Of a stretch of DNA of 64,000 bases, positions 27,141 through 41,336 are shown one piece after another. The DNA comes from Mucilaginibacter sp. PAMB04168 (GTDB lineage Bacteria; Bacteroidota; Bacteroidia; Sphingobacteriales; Sphingobacteriaceae). The notes under the pieces were generated by a model. It was not told the origin of the DNA. It saw only the letters and a program-made list of their open reading frames with translations, and ran no database searches. The translations under genes and the position numbers were made by a program. The stretch's first letter is position 1, and each line of letters begins with the position of its first letter. The stretch covers positions 3,100,001-3,164,000 of the forward strand of contig NZ_CP155079.2 in the NCBI RefSeq assembly GCF_039634365.2. The letters are read 5' to 3'.

Positions 27141-27546
27141 GAGGCTACATTTAATAATTGGAAGTTCGGATCTATCACGTCTTCAGTGTTTTTAATTTAA
27201 CATTGCGCTAATCTTTCCAATCAACTAACACGCTTTAACAAAGTTGAGAATAGATATCTAACTTAAATATATTATTTACTGACCATGCCTATCACAGTTG
27301 TTTCCAAAAAACTGCACACCTACTAAAGTACTTTTAACTACTGCTTAAAGCACATCTTTCCCTAACTATCCTACATCTATAAAGCAGTTTTTATTGGCAA
27401 TATGCATTATGATACTTCAAATAATAAGGCTAAATGAATGACTTGTTACGAGCCGGTATACCAATCTAATCGCTAAAAGTTTTAAATATTTGAGCTTTTG
27501 TTTATAAAAGTCGCAATTAAAATCATCGCTAATTAACATTAAAATA

Positions 27547-27759: not shown

Positions 27760-28185
27760 ATGATGAGACTTTACCCAAGTATAACCAAGAAAACGAAGCT
27801 AAAAGAGCAGATTTTGATTGTGGACAGTGAATGGAACATGCTTAAACTACTATATGCTGTTTTGTCCGATCAATTTGATCTTGTAACAAAAAATAGTTCG
27901 GTTGATGCCCTGCAGTGGTTAGAAAGTGGCAACAAGCCAGCTCTGATCATTACCGAATTCCAACTCCCTTATCTGGATGGTGCTTCCTTCATCAGGCACC
28001 TTAAGTACAGCGGCATTTTTAACAGCACGCCAGTTATAGTCCTTTCTCATGCTAATGATATAGAGGCTAAAATCAAGAACGTTGCTTTCCAAGTGGGCGC
28101 CATTATCTCTAAGCCCTTCAATCCATCTTACCTCATTTTTAAAATTAATACGCTGCTACATGAATACAAATCTGCAATGGCTTGA
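27760..28185 (+). CDS. Stand-alone receiver protein with Glu at the phospho-acceptor position
   Basis: 141 residues, a single CheY-like domain (about 17-135). The acidic pocket is ILIVDSEWN, the switch Ser is in VIVLSHAND, and the Lys-Pro is in IISKPFNP. The phospho-acceptor position reads ALIITEFQLPYLDG, so Glu66 replaces the Asp. Asp-to-Glu often mimics the phosphorylated state, so the domain may be locked on or work by protein contact alone. It opens the exopolysaccharide operon and its 3' end overlaps the next start by 26 bp, indicating translational coupling with the receiver-sugar transferase fusion. Confidence 0.85.
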   Translation: MMRLYPSITKKTKLKEQILIVDSEWNMLKLLYAVLSDQFDLVTKNSSVDALQWLESGNKPALIITEFQLPYLDGASFIRHLKYSGIFNSTPVIVLSHANDIEAKIKNVAFQVGAIISKPFNPSYLIFKINTLLHEYKSAMA

Positions 28186-29269
28186 AATGCCCCAAAACCA
28201 GATATCTGCCTGGCAGATAAATATTGGCTACGCAGGAAAAGATTTCAAAGAGATGGTGCAGGCCGAAATGCCCGACGCTTATCTGATAAATTGCTTTGAA
28301 ACTATTGATGAGCTGAGCAACTCTATTCGCCACTTATCGGTATTGGAAATGCCTGATGTTTTGATGATGGAGGTGGATGATGCCGAACAATGCTTTAGCT
28401 TTATTGAAGCGTTACGTAAGGACGAGCATTTGCAGGATATTTTGATCGTATTACTTTCAAAATTTGATAATGAAGAATGGAAAAAAAGGGCTGCAGCTTT
28501 AAAAGTTCATGACTTTTATGTATATCCTTTTAGCATTGTGCACTTGCATGAGCGCGTTAAACTACTGCTTAAGTTAAGGATACTCAAACCTTACAATAAC
28601 AATCATCAAATTCTTGATTATCAAAAGGAGTTTATTTACCGCATGCCGCCAAGCAAGCGCCTTTTTGATATTGTGTGCTCGGCGTTAACGCTTTTGTTTT
28701 TGGCGCCACTGTTGTGTGTTGTTGCATTGCTGGTTAAACTGGAGTCTCCGGGGCCGATTATCTATCGTAGCAAACGCGTAGGCACTGGTTATAAAGTGTT
28801 CGACTTTTACAAATTCCGCAGCATGCAAACTGATGCAGATAGTAAAGTGACAGAATTTCAAAAAGTAAATATGTACAGCCAAAACAGTAACTCAACTGAT
28901 AAGGCTGTTTTTTTTAAGGTAGCTAATGACCCACGTATAACCAAAGTTGGCCAGTTTATACGCAACACCAGTATTGATGAATTACCGCAGCTTTTTAACA
29001 TCCTGCTGGGTGATATGTCTTTTGTAGGTAATCGTCCACTGCCGCTTTATGAGGCTGAGCTGCTGACTTCAAATGAGTGGTCCATGCGTTTTTTGGGTCC
29101 GGCCGGCTTAACCGGACTGTGGCAAATAACCAAACGCGGTAAACGTGATGTCTCAGAGCAGGAACGCAAAGAACTGGACAACTACTATGCGCAAAGGTGC
29201 TCTTTCTGGCTCGATCTAAAGATAATTCTCAAAACGTTCCCGGCGCTCATACAAAAGGAACAAGTATAG
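28160..29269 (+). CDS. Receiver-like domain fused to a bacterial sugar transferase
   Basis: 369 residues from the ATG at 28160. Residues 1-140 fold like a degenerate receiver: DVLMMEVDDAEQ puts Glu71 at the phospho-acceptor position, VLLSKFDN holds the switch Ser, and the usual Lys is Tyr122 (YVYPF). From about 160 is a polyprenyl-phosphate hexose-1-phosphate transferase (PF02397): KRLFDIVCSALTLLFLAPLL is the membrane helix, followed by YKFRSMQTDAD, SIDELPQLFNILLGDMSFVG and RPLPLYE. This enzyme starts repeat-unit synthesis by loading the first sugar phosphate on undecaprenyl phosphate at the inner membrane. The fused domain suggests direct control of that first step. Confidence 0.9.
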   Translation: MNTNLQWLEMPQNQISAWQINIGYAGKDFKEMVQAEMPDAYLINCFETIDELSNSIRHLSVLEMPDVLMMEVDDAEQCFSFIEALRKDEHLQDILIVLLSKFDNEEWKKRAAALKVHDFYVYPFSIVHLHERVKLLLKLRILKPYNNNHQILDYQKEFIYRMPPSKRLFDIVCSALTLLFLAPLLCVVALLVKLESPGPIIYRSKRVGTGYKVFDFYKFRSMQTDADSKVTEFQKVNMYSQNSNSTDKAVFFKVANDPRITKVGQFIRNTSIDELPQLFNILLGDMSFVGNRPLPLYEAELLTSNEWSMRFLGPAGLTGLWQITKRGKRDVSEQERKELDNYYAQRCSFWLDLKIILKTFPALIQKEQV

Positions 29270-29288
29270 CTTAAACGTCAAACATACC

Positions 29289-29972
29289 ATGAACATTCAA
29301 AAATTTAAATTGCCTCTACTACTCCTGCTCTTTTCCACTAAAACACTCATCGTGAAATCGCAGGAAAGCATAGTCCCGCGGGTATCCGGCGAATACGTCG
29401 ATAAACTGGTGCGTGTTGCACAAAAAAATTACCCTGAGGTAACAGCACGAAGCCAGCAAACAGCTATCGCTAAAAACAAGATTACTCAAACCCAGGTAAG
29501 TTGGCTCGACGCCTTTAACGTATCTTACTTTTACAGGCCAAACCGTACAGTTGATATTGTTGACCCCAACTTATTTAACGGATACCAATTAGGTGTTAGC
29601 CTCAATCTGGGCAGTTTGTTTCAAAAACCCTTTGCCACCAAAGAAGCCAAACTAGAATATAAAGTTGCCCAATTACAAGAAAGGCAATATAACCTAACTA
29701 TCACCGCCCTGGTAAAGGAAAGATACTTTGCCTACTTAGAGCAAATGGGGCAGCTAAGGCTGCGTACCAAATCTTACACCGATGCCGAGGCCCTGGTTAA
29801 ACAGCTAAGGTATAAGTTTGAGAAAGGCGAAGCTCAGTTTGATGATTATCAACGAGCTTTAATCCTGTCTGCAGAGCAAAATCAGCAACTTATACATGCC
29901 GAAGCTGGTGTATTTACCACCAAATCGGCTCTGGAAGAATTACTGGGCGATAAATTAGAAAATGTGAAGTAA
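29289..29972 (+). CDS. TolC-like outer membrane protein, half length
   Basis: 227 residues with a signal peptide (PLLLLLFSTKTLIVKSQ). It contains one TolC-type unit: an N-terminal helix (VDKLVRVAQKNYPEVTARSQQ), a beta part (LGVSLNLGSLFQKPFATKEAKLEY), then a long helix pair ending in SALEELLGDKLENVK. Ordinary TolC proteins have two such repeats and about 420-490 residues. It touches the Wzz-like gene: its stop and the next ATG overlap. It may form part of the outer-membrane or periplasmic export path, as no Wza-type export protein is present nearby. Confidence 0.75.
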   Translation: MNIQKFKLPLLLLLFSTKTLIVKSQESIVPRVSGEYVDKLVRVAQKNYPEVTARSQQTAIAKNKITQTQVSWLDAFNVSYFYRPNRTVDIVDPNLFNGYQLGVSLNLGSLFQKPFATKEAKLEYKVAQLQERQYNLTITALVKERYFAYLEQMGQLRLRTKSYTDAEALVKQLRYKFEKGEAQFDDYQRALILSAEQNQQLIHAEAGVFTTKSALEELLGDKLENVK

Positions 29973-32254
29973 TGGAAATCAGAAATTATTTTTTACTGCT
30001 AAAAAGGCACAAATTGATGCTCATCATCATACCAGTAATTGCCATGATTGCTGCATATGCTTTTGTACGTTACCTGCCTGATACCTACGTGGCCAAAACG
30101 CAAATCGTAACAGGTCTCATCGATCAATCACAACAAGTGCTGGATAACAATAACCGTAACGATAACAGGCGCAATGATGAATTTACAAACCTGATCGAAA
30201 CCATGCAACTCGATAAGGTAATGAGTCAGGTTTCTTACCAATTAGTTATTCATGATCTTACCAGCGGCAAACCGTTTCGTAAAATGAATAAGGCAGAAGA
30301 CTTTAGCCCTGCTATGGGCAAAAAGATCGTGTCGGCCTTGAAAGAAAAGCAGCAATCGTTTGGCTTGCTCAATCCCTCTAACCCGTTAGAAAAGAATATA
30401 GACTCGCTCACGGCTTCGATGGGTTATGATGCTGGCCAATTGTTAAAAAAGAACCTCAAAATTTACCATTTTGATGGCAGTGATTTCATCATCCTGGAAT
30501 GTGAAACCGAAAACGCTGCTCTATCGGCCTTTATTATCAACCAGTTATCAAACAAGTTTATTACCTACTATACCAACTATGTTGGTCAGGGCAGGTATAA
30601 ATCTACCGAATTTTTGGCAAGCCTGCTCAACGAGAAGAAAACGGCAATGCGCGCAAAAATTGACGAACTGCAGAATTATAAGATCAAACACAACATCCTC
30701 GACATGACAAACGAGGCGAAGGATGTTTACGGACAGATTAGCAGTCTTGAAAGTTACCGTCAGCAGGCAGATAAGGATGTTATTGCTTACAGAGGTGCAT
30801 TGAAAAGCATAGACGGTCGCTTTAACCCGAGAGATCGCCGGTACCTGGAATCAACAACTGCTAAGGTAAACAGCAGCATTCTTTCCACCCGCGAGCGATT
30901 ACGGGTTATGAATAATAAATACTTAGAGAACAACTTTGATCAGCGCTATAAAAAGAGTGTTGACTCCCTTCAAGATGTGCTTTCTGAGCAAATTAACGAA
31001 TCAACTGATAAATATATATCTAACCCTTTAGCCGCTAAAGACAACCTGGTGCAGGAGAAACTAAAAATGGAGAATAGCCTTGAGCTGGCCCGTTACAGTT
31101 CAGGCTCTCTAAACCGCCAACTTAGTCAGCTAAAAGGACGCCTAAATTCGCTGGTGCCTGCCGAAGCCGTAGTAAACTCGTTAGAGCGGGATATAGACGT
31201 GGCTACCAAAGAGTACCTGGATGTGCAGGACAAGTACAACCAAGCCAATGTTGCCAACATAATGCCCGTTCAACTGCGTCAATTACATTCAGCATTGCCG
31301 GGTGCCAAGCAACCGTCTAAAAAAATATTTTTAGTTGCAGTAAGCGGCGTAGTGAGCTTTGCCTTGTGCATGGTGATCGTGCTCTTGCTTTTCTACATAG
31401 ACGATTGTGTACGCAACCGTGAAGATCTGGAACGCATTACGAAAATGCCGGTAATAGGCGAACTGAACCTGGTACCCGAAATGGCAGGAAAGAAGATACA
31501 GCCCAAACAAGAAAAATACGTTAGTGGCAGCATCACACTGTTCCGGAACTTATTGCGCAACATCAGGTTTGAGATTGACCGCGTAGCCTCGAAAGATAAA
31601 ATATTTGCCATAACCAGTTTAAACGGCACTCAAGGCAAAACACTCTTTTCCTTCAGTTTAGCTTATGCATACGCTATAAGCAACAAAAAAGTACTGTTGG
31701 TTGACGGTAATTTCAGTAACCCGCTTATTAGCGAGACAGCTAAGCCTAAGCTTTACCTGGAAGATTACTTGCGCGGCGCAGAGTTTGAAAACAGCACTAT
31801 TTACACACAAATTGCCGACGCCGCAGAGAGCGACAAACTCATCAGGCTGCAGGATATAGACGCCAATAATAGCATTACCACCACCATTCAACGCCTGAGC
31901 ACACAAACACCTCAGGTACAAGGCGGCATGGACCGTATCAGCATTATAGGCAACCGTGGCGGCGATACTTCACTATTCGAGATCAGCAATCAATCCAGCA
32001 TCCGCAAACGCCTTGATGATCTGAAGTCAAAATTCGATGTCATCATTATCGAGACTGGCTCACTAGATACTTTATCTAAATCGAAAGAATGGATGCAGTT
32101 TTCGGACAAAACCATAGCCATTTTTGAAAACAATCAAAGTATCAAGAACGGTGCTAAGGCAGGAGTTAAATACCTGCACAGCCTTAACGGCAAAATGCTG
32201 GGTTGGGTACTAAACAAAGTACCTGTTACCTATAAAGAAGCCGTTAACTCTTAA
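29972..32254 (+). CDS. Wzz/BY-kinase-like exopolysaccharide co-polymerase
   Basis: 760 residues. An N-terminal Wzz domain has a first transmembrane helix at about 14-33 (LMLIIIPVIAMIAAYAFV). A periplasmic coiled-coil region runs to about 440, and a second helix lies near 450-475 (FLVAVSGVVSFALCMVIVLLL). A cytoplasmic CpsD/BY-kinase-like ATPase domain follows. Its Walker A is SLNGTQGKTLF (about 551) and its Walker A' is KVLLVDGNFSNP (about 577), where the usual D-x-D is D-G-N. The C-terminus (VPVTYKEAVNS) lacks the tyrosine cluster used for autophosphorylation. It sets chain length and drives export; the kinase activity may be weak or lost. Confidence 0.88.
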   Translation: MEIRNYFLLLKRHKLMLIIIPVIAMIAAYAFVRYLPDTYVAKTQIVTGLIDQSQQVLDNNNRNDNRRNDEFTNLIETMQLDKVMSQVSYQLVIHDLTSGKPFRKMNKAEDFSPAMGKKIVSALKEKQQSFGLLNPSNPLEKNIDSLTASMGYDAGQLLKKNLKIYHFDGSDFIILECETENAALSAFIINQLSNKFITYYTNYVGQGRYKSTEFLASLLNEKKTAMRAKIDELQNYKIKHNILDMTNEAKDVYGQISSLESYRQQADKDVIAYRGALKSIDGRFNPRDRRYLESTTAKVNSSILSTRERLRVMNNKYLENNFDQRYKKSVDSLQDVLSEQINESTDKYISNPLAAKDNLVQEKLKMENSLELARYSSGSLNRQLSQLKGRLNSLVPAEAVVNSLERDIDVATKEYLDVQDKYNQANVANIMPVQLRQLHSALPGAKQPSKKIFLVAVSGVVSFALCMVIVLLLFYIDDCVRNREDLERITKMPVIGELNLVPEMAGKKIQPKQEKYVSGSITLFRNLLRNIRFEIDRVASKDKIFAITSLNGTQGKTLFSFSLAYAYAISNKKVLLVDGNFSNPLISETAKPKLYLEDYLRGAEFENSTIYTQIADAAESDKLIRLQDIDANNSITTTIQRLSTQTPQVQGGMDRISIIGNRGGDTSLFEISNQSSIRKRLDDLKSKFDVIIIETGSLDTLSKSKEWMQFSDKTIAIFENNQSIKNGAKAGVKYLHSLNGKMLGWVLNKVPVTYKEAVNS

Positions 32255-32264
32255 GGCAACGCAA

Positions 32265-32402
32265 ATGGACAAGCATTATAAAAGTTTGGAGGACGATTCG
32301 CAGGCGCAACTAAACCCAAGGCAAAAAGCATTAAAGTTAATTGCAACTGCAATAGCATTTTTAATCATGTCTGGGTTCCTGCTTAAAATCGTTTTGTTTT
32401 AA
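32265..32402 (+). CDS. Small single-pass membrane protein (45 aa)
   Basis: An ATG at 32265 opens a 45-codon frame, 10 bp after the Wzz-like gene and 9 bp before the polymerase gene. The product has a polar N-terminus (MDKHYKSLEDDSQAQLNPRQ) and one hydrophobic helix (LIATAIAFLIMSGFLLKIVLF) at the C-terminus. The tight fit between operon genes and the clear topology argue that it is real. Function unknown; it could be a partner of the Wzz-like or Wzy-like membrane proteins. Confidence 0.65.
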   Translation: MDKHYKSLEDDSQAQLNPRQKALKLIATAIAFLIMSGFLLKIVLF

Positions 32403-32411
32403 AGATACGGA

Positions 32412-33893
32412 ATGATGTTAACTAAGAAAATAAAGACATATAGCTGGACCGACCTGTTTTACCAACCGGCGGGATACCTGATTATGTCGCTTGTAGCGCT
32501 GATTCTGAGCGCTGCAATTATACATTGGGGCGTTCCAGCAGCACTTACCATACTCGGCTTGGTTATAGGCTTACCAATGGTGTATGCCATAGTTGCCTAT
32601 CCGAAGTTTGGTATTATGACGCTGTTGATTAGCTCATACCTCATCATGTGGATTAACCGTATGGTACTCAACTATCCTATGGGTACCGTTATGGATGGCT
32701 TGCTCATTCTTTTGGTTGTGGGCTTTATTATCAAGCATAAGTACGATAAGAAATGGCGCTTCCTTGATGATTCGGTAAGCATAATGATGATGGTGTGGAT
32801 TTTATACAACACCCTGGAACTGTTTAACCCTTACGCACAATCACGTGTGGCCTGGTTATTTACCATACGTACTATAGGCATTGTGGCACTTACATACTAC
32901 CTGTTTGCATTTCATATAAAGTCAGCAGGTTTTATAAGGCTTATATTCAAAACCTGGATTGGCTTATCGGCATTTGCCGCGGTTTATGCCATCTTTCAAG
33001 AGTTTCATGGCTTTTTGCCGTTTGAGCAGAAATGGCTCGACGCTGATCCAAGTGCATCCAGTTTGTACTTCCAGGCAGGACGCTGGCGCAGATTTGGCAT
33101 TTTTTCAGATCCGGTTGCCGCTGCTTATAACATGGCAATCAGCAGCTTACTCTGTTTTGTGCTCATTTTTGTTACCAAATCAGTATTAAAAAAGATAACG
33201 TTAGTGCTGCTCATGATGCTCTTTGCTATGGCAACGCTGTACGCTGGCATCAGGGGTGCATTTATTCTCCTTCCGGCTGGGCTGTTCTTGTTCTTCCTGC
33301 TCAAGCTTAACGCCAAAACACTGATACTGGGAATCATCTTTGCTATGGGATTTGCCGTGCTTATACGTGTACCTACAACTAACACGGCACTATGGCGGTT
33401 CCAAACAGCTTTCCGGCCATCAGATGATGCTTCGTTCAACGTAAGAAAGAACAACCAAAAACGTATACAACCCTACATACAAACGCATCCAATTGGCGGG
33501 GGCCTTGGCTCCACCGGTACTTGGGGGCAACGTTTTTCGCCCGGCACTTACCTGGCATCTTTTCCACCAGATAGCGGCTATGTACGTGTAGCTGTAGAAA
33601 GCGGCTGGATTGGCCTGGCGCTGTTATGTGCATTGTTCTTTGTGATTTTGCAAAAAGGCATCACTAATTACTTTGCTATCCAGAACAATGAGTTAAAACA
33701 TTACTGCCTGGCTATGGTGCTGGTTGTATTTGCGCTGAGCATAGGCAATTACCCACAGGAGGCACTGGTACAGTTTCCCATAAATATCTATTTCTACTTG
33801 GCTATAGCCTTAATTGGCACTACGCTTAAGCTCGACAAACAGCTGCAGCAAAATCAACAAAACCATCACCACCTTAAAAACATAACCCTATGA
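32412..33893 (+). CDS. O-antigen polymerase/ligase-like (Wzy/WaaL) membrane protein
   Basis: 493 residues with about 11-12 transmembrane helices. The large periplasmic loop holds RIQPYIQTHPIGGGLGSTG and PPDSGYVRVAVESGWIGLALL, the HPxGxG and Dxxxxxxxxx(E)xG pattern of the Wzy_C (O-antigen ligase) family. It probably polymerises the repeat units, or transfers the chain, on the periplasmic face. The C-terminus is a His/Gln-rich cytoplasmic tail. Its stop overlaps the next glycosyltransferase start by 4 bp. Confidence 0.87.
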   Translation: MMLTKKIKTYSWTDLFYQPAGYLIMSLVALILSAAIIHWGVPAALTILGLVIGLPMVYAIVAYPKFGIMTLLISSYLIMWINRMVLNYPMGTVMDGLLILLVVGFIIKHKYDKKWRFLDDSVSIMMMVWILYNTLELFNPYAQSRVAWLFTIRTIGIVALTYYLFAFHIKSAGFIRLIFKTWIGLSAFAAVYAIFQEFHGFLPFEQKWLDADPSASSLYFQAGRWRRFGIFSDPVAAAYNMAISSLLCFVLIFVTKSVLKKITLVLLMMLFAMATLYAGIRGAFILLPAGLFLFFLLKLNAKTLILGIIFAMGFAVLIRVPTTNTALWRFQTAFRPSDDASFNVRKNNQKRIQPYIQTHPIGGGLGSTGTWGQRFSPGTYLASFPPDSGYVRVAVESGWIGLALLCALFFVILQKGITNYFAIQNNELKHYCLAMVLVVFALSIGNYPQEALVQFPINIYFYLAIALIGTTLKLDKQLQQNQQNHHHLKNITL

Positions 33894-35134
33894 TTAAAAA
33901 CAGAGATATTTTGGTAGTTGGCCAGCAAGCCTGGGATATTGAGATAGGTAGCAATTGTAAGAACATTGCACTCGAGTTTAGTAAATATAACCGGGTGCTT
34001 TACGTAAACCCACCGCTGGACCGTATTACCATGTTAAGGCAACGCCACGATGAGAAGGTTCAGAAACGTATGGCTGTTATAAGGCATGAGCAAGAAGACC
34101 TGGTACAGCTTGGCCCTAACTTATGGAATCTTTATCCAGATAAATTAATTGAGTCGATCAACTGGATTAAAGCTCACTGGCTTTTCGATCTGTTAAATAA
34201 ACGTAACAACAAACTTTTTGCAAGCGCCATAAAAAAGGCTTTACATGTTTTAGGGTTTGAAAACATCATCATTTTTAACGACAGTGATATGTTCAGAAGC
34301 TTCTATTTGAAAGAATTACTCCAGCCAGACTTAAGCATCTATTACTCGCGCGACTACTTGCTGGCTACCGATTATTACCGCCATCATGGTAAAAAGCTGG
34401 AACCTATGTTAATTAGCAAGAGCGACTTATGCGTAGCTAACTCGGAATATTTGACGGATTACTGCAAAAAATATAACCCTCACTCCTATTACGTTGGCCA
34501 GGGTTGCGACTTAACTACTTTTACTGACGTGGATACTAACTTAGTTCCGGCTGATATAGCGCGTATTGGCAATCCTGTTATTGGTTACGTAGGTGTGTTG
34601 TTTTCTGCAAGACTTGATATCAACATACTGGTACACATAGCGCTAAACAACCCCGACTGGAACTTAGTACTTATTGGGCCGGAGGACGAAAGCTTCATTA
34701 ACAGTAAACTACACCAGTTAGATAATGTACACTTCTTAGGCGCTAAAGCTCCGGCAGAATTACCTGCTTATATTAACGCTTTTGATGTATGTATAAATCC
34801 GCAGGTACTGAATGAACTTACCATTGGCAATTACCCACGTAAGATAGATGAATACCTGGCCATGGGTAAACCGGTAGTAGCAACAAAAACACAAGCCATG
34901 AAAGTGTTCGAAAAACACACTTATACGGCATCTACTAAAGAGGAATACCCTGCATTAATTAGAAAAGCACTGGTTGAAGACAGCCCACAAGCACGTATTA
35001 ACCGCAAAGGGTTTGCTGCAGGCCACACCTGGACCAACAACGTAAATGAGATATACGAAGCCATTATAAAAGCCATTGATATTAACGCTTATAACACGCA
35101 GAAGAAAACAACTTCTCACCAACCTATACCCTAA
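33890..35134 (+). CDS. Glycosyltransferase, GT-B fold (TuaH/GT4-like)
   Basis: 414 residues without signal or membrane segments. The N-terminal Rossmann domain has SNCKNIALEFSKYNRVLYV and SDLCVANSEYLTDYC. The C-terminal GT4-like part has IGYVGVLFSARLDINILV, NWNLVLIGPEDESF, VHFLGAKAPAELPAYINAFDVC and PRKIDEYLAMGKPVVATK, which holds the sugar-nucleotide-binding Glu. It adds a sugar to the lipid-linked repeat unit in the cytoplasm. Donor and linkage unknown. The protein at 45619 is a similar enzyme. Confidence 0.87.
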   Translation: MIKNRDILVVGQQAWDIEIGSNCKNIALEFSKYNRVLYVNPPLDRITMLRQRHDEKVQKRMAVIRHEQEDLVQLGPNLWNLYPDKLIESINWIKAHWLFDLLNKRNNKLFASAIKKALHVLGFENIIIFNDSDMFRSFYLKELLQPDLSIYYSRDYLLATDYYRHHGKKLEPMLISKSDLCVANSEYLTDYCKKYNPHSYYVGQGCDLTTFTDVDTNLVPADIARIGNPVIGYVGVLFSARLDINILVHIALNNPDWNLVLIGPEDESFINSKLHQLDNVHFLGAKAPAELPAYINAFDVCINPQVLNELTIGNYPRKIDEYLAMGKPVVATKTQAMKVFEKHTYTASTKEEYPALIRKALVEDSPQARINRKGFAAGHTWTNNVNEIYEAIIKAIDINAYNTQKKTTSHQPIP

Positions 35135-35182
35135 CTTATAGTCATCATCTAACCACTATAGTTAAACATCTTATCTAAAAAC

Positions 35183-36085
35183 ATGCCTTCTAAATTAGCA
35201 CACTTAATTCTGGCCCATGCCTATCCAAAACAACTCGAACGCCTGATTAATCGCCTGCAGCATGCTGATGCCGATATTTATATACACCTGGATGCTAAAT
35301 CCAAAATAAAAGATTTTATACACCTGCAGTGTAGTAATGTTTTTTTTGTAAAAAAGCGTACCTCGGTGGTTTGGGGAACTTATAGTTTGGTGCAAGCTAC
35401 ATTAGACGGCATGTATGAAATCTTACATGCTCAAAGATCTTACAGCCATATTAACTTGTTAAGTGCGCAGGATTATCCGTTAAAATCAGCAGATGAGATA
35501 CAGCGCTTTTTTCAGGATAACGCTGACAAATCATTTTTAGATTCGCCGGTAATTGGCGAAGGATGGATGGATGGTGTTCACCGTGTTGAAAATTTTAATT
35601 TTGGAGATTATAAATTCCCGGGTCATTACCTTCTGCAATATGCTGTTAACTTTTTAAGGATAAAAAAAAGGGTTCCTGCTGGCCTGAAACCTTATGGCCG
35701 TTCGCAGTGGTTTACTATCACGCCGCAATGTGCCGAGTATATGATTAACTACCTCGAGTCACATCCGGATGTTAAACGCTACTTCAGAATGAGTTTTGCG
35801 CCAGATGAATTTATCTTTCAAACTATTTTGGGTAACTCACCTCTTAAGGATACTTTAGTAAACGACAATTTACGCTACATTAATTTTCCGGCTGGCCATT
35901 TGCACCCCACAACTATAACCACGGCAGATGCGGTGGCATTAACCACTTGTGGAAAGTTATATGCCCGAAAATTCGACCCGAGAACTGACGGCGTTATATT
36001 GAATTATCTGGACTGGGTAGCCCAATTTGGGATAGATCTCGACTCGCAGGAATTTAAGTGTTTAAAATATATCTTCAACTCATAA
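35183..36085 (+). CDS. Core-2/I-branching-type glycosyltransferase (GT14)
   Basis: 300 residues. The start KLAHLILAHAYPKQLERLI, followed by DADIYIHLDAKSK, VVWGTYSLVQATLDGM, YSHINLLSAQDYPL and APDEFIFQTIL, matches the Branch/GT14 family, which adds beta-linked GlcNAc or xylose. The DYPL and PDE motifs are typical. It lies 49 bp after the preceding glycosyltransferase in the same direction. It probably adds a side sugar to the exopolysaccharide repeat. Confidence 0.88.
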   Translation: MPSKLAHLILAHAYPKQLERLINRLQHADADIYIHLDAKSKIKDFIHLQCSNVFFVKKRTSVVWGTYSLVQATLDGMYEILHAQRSYSHINLLSAQDYPLKSADEIQRFFQDNADKSFLDSPVIGEGWMDGVHRVENFNFGDYKFPGHYLLQYAVNFLRIKKRVPAGLKPYGRSQWFTITPQCAEYMINYLESHPDVKRYFRMSFAPDEFIFQTILGNSPLKDTLVNDNLRYINFPAGHLHPTTITTADAVALTTCGKLYARKFDPRTDGVILNYLDWVAQFGIDLDSQEFKCLKYIFNS

Positions 36086-36131
36086 GAATAAAAGGCTAGC
36101 GCAACTATAACCTAAATTAAAGCCATAACGT

Positions 36132-37775
36132 ATGCTGATGCAGTTTTACATATTTGATATTGTATTGGTGATGATGGCTGTTACCCGTAAAGTTGCTTTT
36201 CTTTTTTTATTAACTATCCCTTCTTTAATAGACTGTCGCAAATTTAACCACACCGAGGAAGCAATTAGTGTGGTTAGTACGCCGCTTGCACAAGGCGACA
36301 CTACAGCTTTTAAGAATTTGCTGGGCGTTAATGCCTTTGAATGGAATTTTTTGCAAAACCCGGCCGATGTAAATAATGGCATGCAGATTTATGAGCCTAA
36401 AATGCAGGTGATTAAAACTTTTGCCGGTGTAAGGCACTACCTGGATTGGGGACGTATAGAAAGCAAACAAGGGCAGTTCACCTTTAGCCCAACCCATAGC
36501 GGTGGTTGGAACCTGGATGCCATGTACCAGCGATGCAAAACCGAAAATATAGACGTGCTGGTATGCTTGAAAACCTGTCCTGACTGGCTGTTACAAACTT
36601 ACCCCGGTAACGAGCGCGATGCCGAAAACGTGCCGATGCCTTATGGCTCTGACAAGTTACAACCTAAAAGCTATGTATTGCAGGCTAAGGCGGGCTTTCA
36701 GTTTGCGGCCAGGTATGGCAGCAACTTAAATGTTGAAAAAGCGCTCCTAACCGTAAATACTACTCCGCGGTGGACCGGCGACCAAGCTAATGAGGTTAAA
36801 ACAGGCTTAGGCTTAATTAAGTACATTGAATGTGATAACGAGCGCGACAAATGGTGGAAAGGCGATAAAGCACACCAAAGCGCTGAAGAGTACGCCGCTA
36901 ATTTATCAGCTTTTTACGATGGACATAAAGGCACGTTAGGTAAAGGAGTGGGCGTAAAAAACGCAGATCCTAAAATGCAAGTTGTAATGGCCGGTTTGGC
37001 CGCAACCGATGCGCAATATGTAGCTAAAATGATAGACTGGTGCAAGCAGAACAGGGGTTATAAAACCGATGGTTCTGTCAATCTATGTTTTGATGTGATC
37101 AATTTCCACCTGTATTCCAATGACCACCAATCTAACAACGGCAAAGCCACTCAGGGAATAGCGCCTGAACTGTCTGAAGCGGGTAAGGTAGCGGCCGATT
37201 TTGTAACCTTAGCTCAAACTTACAAGTTACCGGTTTGGGTTACAGAAGCTGGATATGATATAAACCAGCAAAGCCCCCAACGCGCTGTAAAGGTTGGCAA
37301 CAAAGATGAACTGAAAACCCAGGCCGACTGGACCATTCGTACATCGCTGCTGTACGCTCGCTTTGGCATTAAAAAAGTGTTCTTTTATGAACTCTTTGAC
37401 GACAACCTGGCCAATCCTACACAGTACGCTTCATCCGGACTGGTTACAAACGACCTGAAGAGAAGGCCGGCCGCCGATTACATACTGCAAACCAAAAATT
37501 TGTTAGGCAATTACAGTTACCGTGAAACCATATCGAAAACACCATTAGTTGATGTATATCGAAACGGCAACAAGGTTATCTATGTGTTAACTATCCCCGA
37601 CCAAACTGGGAAAAACGTCGCTTATAATCTTTCTTTACCCGGCGTAAAACAAGTGACTGTACATCAACTGCATGCCGGTACCGATGCTATGGAGAGCCAC
37701 CAACAAAGCGTTGGCAACAATACCGTAGCGCTCACCGTAACAGAAACGCCTTTGTTTGTAGAGGTTAATAAATAG
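36132..37775 (+). CDS. Clan-A (TIM-barrel) glycoside hydrolase, exported
   Basis: 547 residues as listed. Internal starts at 36171 or 36174 give a neater lipoprotein signal (AVTRKVAFLFLLTIPSLIDC). The barrel follows (about 60-440): VRHYLDWGRIESKQGQF, YIECDNERDKWWKG with the predicted acid/base Glu, INFHLYSND, and LPVWVTEAGYD with the predicted nucleophile Glu. A small beta-rich C-terminal domain closes the protein. The pattern resembles GH39/GH5-like enzymes, but I cannot fix the family. In this operon it probably trims or releases the exopolysaccharide, like the glycanases of other synthase loci. Confidence 0.78.
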   Translation: MLMQFYIFDIVLVMMAVTRKVAFLFLLTIPSLIDCRKFNHTEEAISVVSTPLAQGDTTAFKNLLGVNAFEWNFLQNPADVNNGMQIYEPKMQVIKTFAGVRHYLDWGRIESKQGQFTFSPTHSGGWNLDAMYQRCKTENIDVLVCLKTCPDWLLQTYPGNERDAENVPMPYGSDKLQPKSYVLQAKAGFQFAARYGSNLNVEKALLTVNTTPRWTGDQANEVKTGLGLIKYIECDNERDKWWKGDKAHQSAEEYAANLSAFYDGHKGTLGKGVGVKNADPKMQVVMAGLAATDAQYVAKMIDWCKQNRGYKTDGSVNLCFDVINFHLYSNDHQSNNGKATQGIAPELSEAGKVAADFVTLAQTYKLPVWVTEAGYDINQQSPQRAVKVGNKDELKTQADWTIRTSLLYARFGIKKVFFYELFDDNLANPTQYASSGLVTNDLKRRPAADYILQTKNLLGNYSYRETISKTPLVDVYRNGNKVIYVLTIPDQTGKNVAYNLSLPGVKQVTVHQLHAGTDAMESHQQSVGNNTVALTVTETPLFVEVNK

Positions 37776-37779
37776 ATTA

Positions 37780-38718
37780 TTAATGGGCCGGCTTTGGCAA
37801 TAAAGCTTGTTTAATTAAATAAAGCCGTTGCCGTAACGAATAATATGTTTTGGTAACTTCGTTTAATCCCATTGCCTCCCCAAAAGCACGATATATATTT
37901 GGAAGATTATCTCGGTTTACAGAATGCTTTACACTCAAAAATATAGTGTATTGTCTTTTAACTAATGTTGTAAGCTGCGATTTATCAATGATGTTACGTT
38001 GATGTAACACCTTATACAAGCGCACGTTTTCAATAAAGTTGTTACCTGTACTGTAAAAGCGGCTGCTTACATCTTTATTATGGTTGCGGAAGTAATTTAG
38101 TATCTTACCTGATACAAATACATCTGATATCTGTAACAGTGATACCCAAAAAAGCCAGTCGCCGCTAAACTTAAACTGGGTGTACTCCGTATTTACACGG
38201 TTAAACAGCTCTTTACGCCATACGGCCATACTGGCGTTTACTACGTTGTTGCCATTAAGCATGTATTTTTGGATAAACTCACGGCCATTCTCGGTATTGG
38301 CATAGAAAGGATAATAAGTGGTTTCCTTTACTATATTAGGCTCATAATAATAGCATGACTGGCAAAATGCAAGCCCAACATTTGGATTGGCCAACAGTCC
38401 TTCCATCAAGGTTTCCAGCAAAGTTGGCTCGCACCAATCATCACTTTCTGCCAACCAAATAAAATCACCTTTGGCTAGCATAACACCTTTTTGCCACTGC
38501 TTAAACGTACTACCGCTGTTTACTTCGTTAAAAACTATATTACTAACCTTAGGATTGGCGCGATACGTTTCTATTACTTCCCGGCTATTGTCAGGTGAAC
38601 AGTCGTCAAGTATAATAATTTCAAAGTCCTGGTATGTTTGCTTCAGGATAGAATCTATACGCTGCTTCAAATAACAAGCGTGATTATAATTGGGTATTAT
38701 TACTGAAACCTTAACCAT
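37780..38718 (-). CDS. Family 2 glycosyltransferase
   Basis: 312 residues from the ATG at 38718 (MVKVSVIIPNYNHACYL); an upstream start at 38796 would run far into the flippase gene and is rejected. GT2 motifs: QTYQDFEIIILDDCSPDNS with the first Asp pair, FIWLAESDDWCEP with the DxD-type metal site, and FSGDWLFWVSLL with the likely acceptor Asp. The reading frame overlaps the end of the Wzx gene by 8 bp, so the pair is translationally coupled. It adds one sugar of the repeat. Confidence 0.9.
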   Translation of the reverse strand: MVKVSVIIPNYNHACYLKQRIDSILKQTYQDFEIIILDDCSPDNSREVIETYRANPKVSNIVFNEVNSGSTFKQWQKGVMLAKGDFIWLAESDDWCEPTLLETLMEGLLANPNVGLAFCQSCYYYEPNIVKETTYYPFYANTENGREFIQKYMLNGNNVVNASMAVWRKELFNRVNTEYTQFKFSGDWLFWVSLLQISDVFVSGKILNYFRNHNKDVSSRFYSTGNNFIENVRLYKVLHQRNIIDKSQLTTLVKRQYTIFLSVKHSVNRDNLPNIYRAFGEAMGLNEVTKTYYSLRQRLYLIKQALLPKPAH

Positions 38719-40186
38719 AAATTTGAGGATTTTTAGCAGATAAACTGCGTTTAACAGATAAGAACTTGTTGGTGACAAAAGGCTGTATAACCTCATTGAT
38801 CAACTGTTCTTTAAATAACAGCTTTTGAAATAAGATGTAGAATAGCGCACATGCGGGTACCGCAGTAAGTATCAGGTAATATACATTGTGATACTGCGCA
38901 CGACAAAATAAAATGATGGGGATAAATACCAATGAACTTGCCGCAGCTGTTATAAGCGGACGAAGCGAAAAAGTAAATGTATATAGCTTTTTAACAAAAT
39001 AAATAAAGAACCCGGTTACTACCATTTCCGAAACCACATTAGCAATGGCTGCGCCTACATGCTCTAATCTTGGCACGAGCGTAAAATTGAGCACCAAACC
39101 GGTAACTACGCCCCCTAATACAGAAAACAGCATTTGCTTGTCCTTGCCATCCGGAACCAAAATCTGGAACCCGAACAAATAACCAAAACCTATAGTGAGC
39201 GGCAGTATAGCAAGTATTTGCATGGCTTGTGTAGCATCCAGGAATTTTGCACTTGAGAAAGCAACTATAAATTCAGGAGCCAATAACGCCAACCCAAATC
39301 CTATTGGAATAGAAAAGAACGCCGTAAACGCAAATGAGCGGTTTAAAGTAACTTGCACATCGCTATAATTTCGCAATGACAGGTTTTTGGCCAAACCAGG
39401 TATGAGCACCATTCCTAAGGAGGTTACTATAGGTAGGGCAATTTTAGAAAGTTTTACAGCAGCCGTATATAAGCCAACTGCATGCGTATTAGCTAAAAAG
39501 CCAAGCAAAACTGTATCCAGCATAGTATACATGCTGGTAGCTATTGTAGTACTAAATATAAGAAATAATGGTTTAAGGTGCCGCTTTAAATCAAGTCCTT
39601 TTAGTTTAACCGATACACTTTTATGTAGCCTTACCATATTTACCGCATTATTAGACAGCGTTGTGAATATGATGATGAGCAGGTACCAGTGATAATCCTT
39701 GCCCGAATGAATCAAAACAAACATGGCTATCAACGAAAATACCCTTATAATAATAGAACGGATGGCTACTGTTCGAAACTGTTCTAATCCTTCGTAAAAC
39801 CAGTCGATTGAGGTGAAACTTAATAACACCAATAAAACAGACCATAAATACAGATCGGGGTTGGATTTGAAATCTGCTATGAAAAATAAGCTGGCTAAAT
39901 AAACTACCGCCAACATTAAGCTTGTTCCAAAATAAATAACCGACAGTTCGGAAAATACATTGTTAAGCTTACTACGGTCATGTTTTGCTTTAGCGATCTC
40001 GCGTATGCCATACACGGGTATGCCCAGAGCAGCGATTAATCCAAAGTATTGTGCATATGAGGTAATAAATTGTACTTTGCCTACTCCGGAAGGCCCAACA
40101 ACTTTTGATACATAAGGGAAACTGATAATAGGAAATAAGATATTGGAAAGGGACAGCAGCAAATTAAAAAAATAATTCTTTTTCAT
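38711..40186 (-). CDS. Wzx-type oligosaccharide flippase
   Basis: 491 residues with about 14 hydrophobic helices, of the MOP (MATE-like) superfamily. The start NYFFNLLLSLSNILFPIISFPYVSKVVGP and GKVQFITSYAQYFGLIAALGIPVYG is typical of polysaccharide flippases. It moves the lipid-linked repeat unit from the inner to the outer face of the inner membrane for the Wzy-like protein. It is in a reverse-strand pair with the GT2 gene, facing away from the LuxR regulator across 500 bp of regulatory-looking DNA. Confidence 0.88.
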   Translation of the reverse strand: MKKNYFFNLLLSLSNILFPIISFPYVSKVVGPSGVGKVQFITSYAQYFGLIAALGIPVYGIREIAKAKHDRSKLNNVFSELSVIYFGTSLMLAVVYLASLFFIADFKSNPDLYLWSVLLVLLSFTSIDWFYEGLEQFRTVAIRSIIIRVFSLIAMFVLIHSGKDYHWYLLIIIFTTLSNNAVNMVRLHKSVSVKLKGLDLKRHLKPLFLIFSTTIATSMYTMLDTVLLGFLANTHAVGLYTAAVKLSKIALPIVTSLGMVLIPGLAKNLSLRNYSDVQVTLNRSFAFTAFFSIPIGFGLALLAPEFIVAFSSAKFLDATQAMQILAILPLTIGFGYLFGFQILVPDGKDKQMLFSVLGGVVTGLVLNFTLVPRLEHVGAAIANVVSEMVVTGFFIYFVKKLYTFTFSLRPLITAAASSLVFIPIILFCRAQYHNVYYLILTAVPACALFYILFQKLLFKEQLINEVIQPFVTNKFLSVKRSLSAKNPQIYG

Positions 40187-40685
40187 GTAAAACAGCTAAA
40201 TAAATTTTGCAGGACCAATATCCAGCTTACCCAACGCTATTTGCGTTAAGCGTAAGCAAATTTAACTTCAATAAAAAATACACCGTTCAGTATTAATACT
40301 GAACGCCCAATGTATAAGTATCAAAAAGCAACAATACTTCAGTATTAGTTAATATTTGGCTTAAACCTCCTCATTATTTCACTCTGAAGTAACTATTAAC
40401 AAATATTAATATTCCAAGCAGTTTTATTTCCTGATTTTGAGCTGCTTATATAAAAATAAGCCGGTATACCTTTGTAACTAACAGGTAGTTAATGCGTAAA
40501 GCCCCGGTTGTGGTTTTTAAAAACAAGTATTTCACCAATCATTTCGAGTAATAACCACATGGTGATTTGAGGGTTTATATTAACTAAACAGGTGTTTACC
40601 ATTAAAGAAATAATTTTCCCTTTGGTTATAATTGTAATAATATCTAACCACGTTTTTTACCACGTTTTATACTAAGAAAAACTTT
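40187..40685. other. Divergent regulatory region between wzx-like and LuxR-type genes
   Basis: About 500 bp, AT-rich. It holds a perfect palindrome (40284-40305), a related partial copy TTCAGTATTA near 40338-40347 and a TACCTTTG -7-like element at 40467-40474. No gene was recognised. Confidence 0.5.
40284..40305. promoter_or_regulatory. Perfect palindrome upstream of the flippase gene
   Basis: CGTTCAGTATT directly followed by its exact complement AATACTGAACG, no spacer. It lies 98 bp upstream of the flippase start and 380 bp upstream of the LuxR-type gene. A related TTCAGTATTA recurs about 50 bp away. A site for a dimeric regulator is plausible. Confidence 0.5.
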
Positions 40686-41336
40686 ATGATAAATGTCATA
40701 CTAGCGGAAGACCATGTTCTGGTCAGAAAAGCAATCAAAACACTGTTAGAAGCTGAGGCTGACATAACTGTTACGGGTGAAGCCGATAATGGCGAACAGG
40801 TAGTTGAACTCATCAAAAATAAGGTTCAGGCTGATATTATTTTAGCAGAAATTAATATGCCTGGAATGGATGCTATGGAAATGCTTGGAGTATTAAAGGA
40901 AATGGCACCAAACAGTAAGATAGCGTTCCTTTCTATGATGGATAATGAGAAAAGTATTTTACAAGCCATACAAGCCGGAGCAAAAGGTTACCTTAACAAA
41001 ACTATTGATGTATTTGAACTACTGTTTGCAGTAAGACATATTTACAATAATGGTCAGTACATCTGTACTTCATCATCTATGGCGTTGCTTAACAAGATGC
41101 AGCAAATGCCGCAGATAACACCTGTAGAAATTAGTCCGGACACAGAATTTTCAGTGCGTGAAATTGAAATACTTACGCTTATGGCAGAAGGCTATACTAA
41201 TTATGAAATTGCAGAAAAGCTATTTACAAGCAAACGTACAGTTGAAAATTACCGACAGAACATGCTGAACAAGACCGGTTCACGTAACACTGCAGCATTA
41301 ATAAAATTTGCTATCAATCATGGTATTGTTAAATAA
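40686..41336 (+). CDS. LuxR/NarL-type regulator with Glu at the receiver phospho-site
   Basis: 216 residues. Receiver domain at 1-120: ILAEDH acidic pair, AFLSMMDN switch Ser, KGYLNKTI Lys. The phospho-acceptor reads ADIILAEINMPGMDA, with Glu55 where NarL-type regulators have Asp. The DNA-binding LuxR domain (about 150-212) is intact: FSVREIEILTLMAEGYTNYEIAEKL, then FTSKRTVENYRQNMLNKTG. Such an exchange suggests a phosphorylation-independent, perhaps constitutively active regulator. It sits at the end of the exopolysaccharide locus, whose other two receiver domains have the same change. Confidence 0.88.
   Translation: MINVILAEDHVLVRKAIKTLLEAEADITVTGEADNGEQVVELIKNKVQADIILAEINMPGMDAMEMLGVLKEMAPNSKIAFLSMMDNEKSILQAIQAGAKGYLNKTIDVFELLFAVRHIYNNGQYICTSSSMALLNKMQQMPQITPVEISPDTEFSVREIEILTLMAEGYTNYEIAEKLFTSKRTVENYRQNMLNKTGSRNTAALIKFAINHGIVK

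Follow-up and report, generated by a model that had tools for sequence, protein, structure and literature searches.

Glutamate at the phospho-acceptor site of three receiver domains of unequal age in an exopolysaccharide locus of Mucilaginibacter

An exopolysaccharide locus of Mucilaginibacter sp. PAMB04168 (a soil-type bacterium whose genome of 5.44 Mb is in two contigs) encodes three receiver domains that carry glutamate at the site of the phospho-acceptor aspartate. The locus lies within the 64,000-nucleotide stretch that we analyzed (contig NZ_CP155079.2, positions 3,100,001 to 3,164,000; hereafter the window). The three domains are a stand-alone single-domain response regulator (RR), the N-terminal domain of a protein that ends in a small monotopic phosphoglycosyl transferase (the fusion), and the receiver of a LuxR/NarL-type regulator. 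We found that the Glu of the fused domain is a fixed family feature that is older than the Glu of the RR, and that the RR acquired its Glu recently, together with loss of the second pocket acid. The interpretation that we favor, tentatively and at a little less than an even chance, is that the RR and the fusion form a conserved contact module, that the RR and the LuxR regulator are locked in an active-like state, and that control is exerted through the amount of protein.

The codons of the RR gene, read directly, give a pocket of Asp22, Ser23, Glu66, Ser96, and Lys118, in which the second pocket acid is a serine. The LuxR regulator has Glu8, Asp9, Glu55, Ser83, and Lys105, a pocket that is complete apart from the phospho-acceptor Asp. 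Alignment placed Glu66 and Glu55 at CheY position 57 (a single-sequence AlphaFold2 model of the LuxR regulator was poor, with a mean predicted local distance difference test score of 55.9, and was not used). The first-pass annotation, made from the window alone, had reported Glu at all three sites and a normal Asp in a LytTR regulator; both readings were borne out, the LytTR pocket being D/D/D/T/K. It had also stated that two of the receivers keep the acidic pocket and the switch Ser/Lys, which is correct for the LuxR regulator but only partly so for the RR, where Asp22, Ser96, and Lys118 alone are kept.

The domain fused to the transferase gave no PF00072 match, being too degenerate for detection, and its Glu71 was placed at the phospho site by profile-profile alignment (hhalign) of the fused domain with RRs (99.1%, E 1e-18). 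In an AlphaFold2 model of the fusion (predicted template-modeling score 0.42; the receiver part is the confident portion and the one used), the domain adopts a (beta-alpha)5 fold, and Glu71 lies where strand 3 (residues 67-72) ends. The motif is still visible in bridging sequences of deeper branches (CEARLQGMNG), and Foldseek matched the fusion to PglC (best structural match 8g1n) and to receivers. Because both pocket acids are gone, and Glu71 and Tyr122 occupy the phospho and Lys sites, we call this domain a pseudo-receiver. All three domains thus combine a receiver fold with absence of Asp at the phospho site. The enzyme belongs to the small class: its PF02397 domain lacks the four-helix bundle of the large class, and its N-terminal part models as a receiver fold.

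A search of 149 Mucilaginibacter genomes with the RR gave 82 close matches, in 80 genomes, with E values of 1e-29 or below and a clear gap to the next match, at 3e-18. The RR pocket reads Asp-Asp-Asp-Ser-Lys at 79 of these loci and Asp-Ser-Glu-Ser/Thr-Lys at three: the window and the genomes that we designate G011 and G206. As the canonical pocket predominates, a phosphorylated RR ancestor is likely. The Glu of the fused domain, by comparison, is present in 82/82 type-A fusions of the genus, and it does not depend on the Lys site, since the latter varies (Y, E, V, L, M, A, H, or Q) while the Glu is fixed. Being ancient, fixed in this way, and located in a domain that lacks both the catalytic Lys and the acid pair, the fused Glu is probably not a simple phospho-mimic. 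Asp118 and Arg132 of the pseudo-receiver are likewise each found in 82/82 loci. By offset they correspond to PhoB positions 101 and 115, which we take to be Asp101 and Arg115, the residues that form the central salt bridge of the dimer. On the alpha4-beta5-alpha5 face, two charged central residues are described as absolutely conserved and crucial (PMC2586830).

The pairing of the two genes extends well beyond the genus. In the window, the open reading frame of the fusion starts at an ATG at 28160 and overlaps the RR gene by 26 bases, as the first-pass annotation had noted, and a scan of GTDB genomes gave at least 80 loci. Among the matches listed, to which the counts in this paragraph refer, titles give 79 Bacteroidota (Mucilaginibacter, Pedobacter, Cytophagales, Saprospiraceae, Chitinophagaceae, and Bacteroidales) and one KSB1 bin. 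A receiver gene stands directly upstream of the fusion in 78/80, the exceptions being L196 (Hufsiella) and L267. The phospho site of these 78 receivers is Asp in 72 (L210, which is split by unread bases, is counted once, as Asp), Ser in four, and Glu in two. The fused site could be scored in 75 of the 80 loci, where it is Glu in 53, Asp in 10, Gln in four, His in three, Ser in three, Lys in one, and Asn in one; some distant loci align weakly, and the profile behind the counts was itself derived from the window and 21 of the loci scored. At the 33 best-scoring loci, the fused residue is Glu in all 32 that have a letter at the site. Arg132 (72/75) and Asp118 (68/75) are the best-conserved residues of the pseudo-receiver.

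Individual loci of this wider set showed further variation. L196 (Hufsiella ginkgonis) has a type-A fusion with Glu, and no adjoining RR gene was found. L221, the KSB1 bin outside Bacteroidota, has Asp in a fused domain that gives a clear receiver match, together with a canonical upstream RR; it may represent a less degenerate form, a horizontal transfer, or a binning error. At the deeper loci L227, L230, L232, L245, L246, L254, and L257, longer receiver-domain proteins (open frames of 369-692 residues) lie upstream of the pair on the same strand.

On a tree of the fusions (58 rows, inferred by a quick method, with some long branches and with support from the Shimodaira-Hasegawa-like approximate likelihood ratio test [SH-aLRT] only), the phospho site of the RR was altered no fewer than three times. 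It became Glu in the clade of the window, G011, and G206 (SH-aLRT 97), Glu again in Pedobacter suwonensis and Pedobacter sp. MC2016-05 (SH-aLRT 100), and Ser in four Pedobacter (SH-aLRT 100). In these last four (L201, L207, L209, and L213), the RR has Gly in place of the second pocket acid. The two pocket changes accompany each other in every Glu-type RR that we read, in the three of Mucilaginibacter as in the two of Pedobacter, and all nine non-Asp RRs that we read have lost the second pocket acid and kept the Ser/Thr and Lys. Within the window clade, RR identities of 0.38, 0.47, and 0.51 accompany transferase identities of 0.63, 0.65, and 0.71; for Asp-type pairs in those transferase ranges, mean RR identity is 0.37, 0.37-0.47, and 0.58. 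The RR identity of the pair L215/L217 is somewhat low (0.48 versus 0.58, standard deviation 0.085). As RR identity in the Glu clade matches what transferase identity predicts, there is no sign of RR decay.

G011, a one-contig genome of the same genus, carries the whole locus in synteny, with 51-68% protein identity and all three Glu residues. G206 has the RR Glu, the fusion Glu, and much of the operon; neither a LuxR homologue nor a further receiver was found in about 50 kb read around its locus. The nearest relative of the LuxR regulator is that of G011 (60% identity), and the next among the 149 genomes reaches at most 52%. Asp occupies the site in all 34 of the other LuxR homologues read, Glu being present in the window and G011 only; the 34, which exclude the window copy, two copies of the G011 gene, and two poor partial matches, are a subset, many further homologues having been listed. 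The first-pass annotation had named a majority of Asp among homologues as grounds for refutation. Taken literally, this applies to the RR (Asp in 79 of 82) and to the LuxR regulator (Asp in all 34), yet Glu is kept within the clade.

We also asked how common such receivers are elsewhere in the genome. Across all 92 PF00072 matches of the window's genome, the phospho-site residue is Asp in 88, Glu in two, His in one, and Ser in one. Both Glu receivers are those of this locus (the RR and the LuxR regulator; the fused domain lies outside the 92), and the other Asp-less receivers (His and Ser) are at G000:C2:13614 and G000:C1:714870, G000 being this genome. Two Glu among 92 receivers are not excessive; that both fall in one locus is less expected. 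All 64 PF00072 matches of G011 were read as Asp (59), Glu (four), or Asn (one, a partial match with an internal stop). Two of the four Glu are safe, and both are in this locus; those at G011:C1:318412 and 352474, which read HER, rest on a one-residue alignment gap and are, ungapped, probably His. The window's genome also holds a second RR/fusion pair, of type B (L094, G000:C1:837357-838942). Its RR pocket is canonical (Glu-Asp-Asp-Ser-Lys), and its fused domain aligns with Asp rather than Glu at the phospho site; cross-talk between this pair and the module in the window is possible.

The coordinates of the locus are collected below. The minus-strand glycosyl transferase and flippase genes come between the plus-strand operon and luxR, which is thereby set apart. 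The 547-residue operon protein (36132-37775) has no Pfam match and is about 60% conserved in G011 and G206.

Features of the exopolysaccharide locus, in window coordinates
Feature	Position	Strand	Basis
RR, stand-alone single-domain response regulator	27760..28185	+	PF00072 50.3 bits, alignments, codons
Ser23 codon of RR, second pocket acid site (PhoB residue 10 by offset)	27826..27828	+	
Glu66 codon (GAA) of RR, phospho-acceptor site (PhoB residue 53 by offset)	27955..27957	+	
Fusion: N-terminal pseudo-receiver (about residues 18-140) and small monotopic phosphoglycosyl transferase (Bac_transf)	28160..29269	+	PF02397 204.5 bits, hhalign, AlphaFold2, Foldseek
Glu71 codon (GAG) of fusion	28370..28372	+	
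Asp118-Arg132 stretch of fusion (Lys site -4 and +10)	28511..28555	+	Conservation counts
Outer-membrane efflux-type protein, then Wzz/ATPase chain-length protein	29289..32254	+	PF02321, PF02706, PF13614
Wzy_C (O-antigen ligase/polymerase type), glycosyl transferase group 1, branching enzyme, 547-residue protein	32412..37775	+	PF04932, PF13692, PF02485; G011 synteny
Family-2 glycosyl transferase and Wzx-type flippase	37780..40186	-	PF00535, PF01943
LuxR/NarL-type regulator, Glu55 at phospho site, remaining pocket intact	40686..41336	+	PF00072 79.6 bits, PF00196
Glu55 codon (GAA) of LuxR regulator	40848..40850	+	

In Myxococcus xanthus, phosphorylated EpsW activates the transferase EpsZ, by contact according to the authors' evidence and models (PMC12802240). 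By analogy, the RR and the pseudo-receiver/transferase fusion may constitute a conserved protein-contact module of Bacteroidota. In the ancestral arrangement, phosphorylation of the RR would alter how it contacts the pseudo-receiver and would in this way regulate the activity of the enzyme initiating exopolysaccharide synthesis. In the lineage of the window, the RR would have become blind to kinases because it lost both the second pocket acid (Asp to Ser) and the phospho-acceptor (Asp to Glu), and it was probably left in an active-like shape, given that the two changes fall on the positions altered in PhoB D10A/D53E. The LuxR regulator of the locus, likewise converted to Glu with its pocket intact, would probably be active-like also, and control would then rest on the amount of these proteins made rather than on phosphate. 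The first-pass annotation had proposed a phosphorylation-independent circuit, perhaps acting through protein contact. Retention of Glu within the clade, the pairing of the genes, and the EpsW/EpsZ precedent are consistent with the contact; a common origin of the three Glu is not supported, the fused Glu being ancient, the RR Glu later, and the LuxR Glu limited to two genomes. A more sweeping version, in which the exopolysaccharide switch of Bacteroidota was hard-wired at least three times by natural loss of the phospho-acceptor and the lineage of the window is wholly phosphorylation-blind, with both regulators locked and the RR a natural PhoB D10A/D53E, we regard as doubtful.

Several observations weigh against this interpretation. 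Substitution of Asp by Glu is often insufficient for activation on its own (PMC4395418), and activation by Glu has been disproved in some of the pseudo-receivers tested (PMC12632262). The second pocket acid is acidic in only 29% of Asp-less receivers (PMC4395418); since its loss is so common among them, the pair of changes in the RR need not mean activation. One of the three losses of Asp in the RR, that in four Pedobacter, gave Ser, a residue that does not mimic phosphorylation. At Lys+2 the RR has retained Phe, a residue linked with inactive shapes of CheY (PMC12632262), and the Lys partner of a phospho-mimic is missing from the fused domain. The Glu of the LuxR regulator has been seen in two genomes only, and this locus is only a candidate target of that regulator. 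EpsZ, the enzyme of the precedent, is large and dimeric and has membrane helices, whereas the enzyme in the window is a small-class one that carries a pseudo-receiver at its N terminus.

We looked for further links between the genes. RR identity and fused-domain identity show a partial correlation of 0.56 given the catalytic domain (87 loci), as against 0.43 for the RR and the catalytic domain given the fused domain; because the genes are all linked and the pairs are not independent, we do not count this as proof of coevolution. As a possible shared operator, the 12-mer AGCCGGTATACC occurs on the same strand before the RR operon (27451-27462) and before luxR (40459-40470), and the other four of the six exact copies that the genome holds all fall within long open frames. 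A shared word of at least 12 letters arose in 163 of 1000 shuffles of both regions, so the match is not beyond chance, a further point against the favored interpretation, and no 10-mer is common to the two corresponding regions of G011. We treat the 12-mer as a weak lead only.

It is somewhat unlikely, in our judgment, that the domains are purely structural pseudo-receivers. The Glu residues would then not be phospho-mimics; Glu71 would serve structure or binding in a docking domain, and the RR and the LuxR regulator would have turned into constitutively acting adaptors or DNA binders, in a state independent of the Glu. Such a role would suit a Glu71 that is fixed in 82/82 loci beside a variable Lys site and without either pocket acid, and Asp118 and Arg132 are as conserved as Glu71. 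Ser instead of Glu in four Pedobacter RRs points the same way, as does the dimerization of many pseudo-receivers without phosphorylation (reviewed in PMC12632262). The Ser/Thr and Lys kept in the RR and the LuxR regulator, however, are what a phospho-mimic Glu would call for, and two of the three independent RR losses were to Glu, although Glu is the most frequent substitute overall as well (Asp is missing from about 4% of all receivers, and Glu takes its place in 26% of these; PMC4395418).

The RR and the LuxR regulator might instead be relics under relaxed selection after loss of a partner kinase, the pattern being drift in one locus. The fusions of G011 and G206 have long branches, further pocket changes have accumulated, and related RRs have lost Asp several times, all of which would be expected of decay. 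Against this, the frames are open, Glu is conserved in the window, G011, and G206 at RR identities of 0.38-0.51, these identities fit those of the transferases, the switch Ser/Thr and Lys are kept, and Glu is confined to the receivers of this locus within the genome; we consider decay quite unlikely. Also quite unlikely, finally, is a coincidence of unrelated local events, in which an old pseudo-receiver and two independent recent substitutions are neighbors by accident. The differing ages of the Glu residues agree with it, and 47 of 4095 receiver pairs on the main contig (1.1%, pairs within one protein included) lie no more than 13.5 kb apart, a chance that is small but not negligible because the locus was chosen for its Glu pattern. 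Two separate Glu genes have nevertheless been retained jointly in two diverged genomes.

The presence of Glu in all three domains, and its retention in a relative with the same locus, suggest a hard-wired on/off switch of polysaccharide synthesis. How pseudo-receivers are switched on and off was called a mystery in a 2025 review (PMC12632262), and the same RR beside the same enzyme gene in the 82 loci of one genus, with Asp in 79 and Glu in three, is a ready comparative set, extended by the independent Glu and Ser conversions in Pedobacter. The set lets one ask whether natural replacement of Asp by Glu locks a response regulator on, and it bears on whether Bacteroidota generally control polysaccharide synthesis through receiver contact with a phosphoglycosyl transferase, as is known from Myxococcus.

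A literature search by titles and abstract openings returned EpsW/EpsZ and general papers, and no paper on the Bacteroidota pair of RR and pseudo-receiver/transferase. The locus in the window resembles EpsW/EpsZ in that a single-domain response regulator is encoded alongside the transferase that initiates a Wzx/Wzy-type pathway, with control by contact proposed in both. EpsW needs phosphorylation, whereas the RR in the window has Glu66 and no phosphorylatable Asp, and EpsZ is of the large type lacking the beta-hairpin, to which the enzyme in the window does not belong. Small monotopic phosphoglycosyl transferases with receiver domains are mentioned in the discussion of PMC12802240; like the fusion, they join a receiver-like domain to a PglC-type catalytic domain, and no report of the paired upstream RR, the invariant Glu, or the conversion of the RR to Glu was found in the texts consulted. 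All three domains of the locus are like other aspartate-less receivers in lacking Asp, and differ in being three in one locus and of unequal ages. The engineered PhoB D10A/D53E protein, constitutively active by the title of PDB entry 2jb9, is an OmpR-type DNA-binding regulator altered at the same two pocket positions as the natural RR, which has Ser rather than Ala at position 10; these positions were mapped by offset, the two ends of the match both being shifted by three residues.

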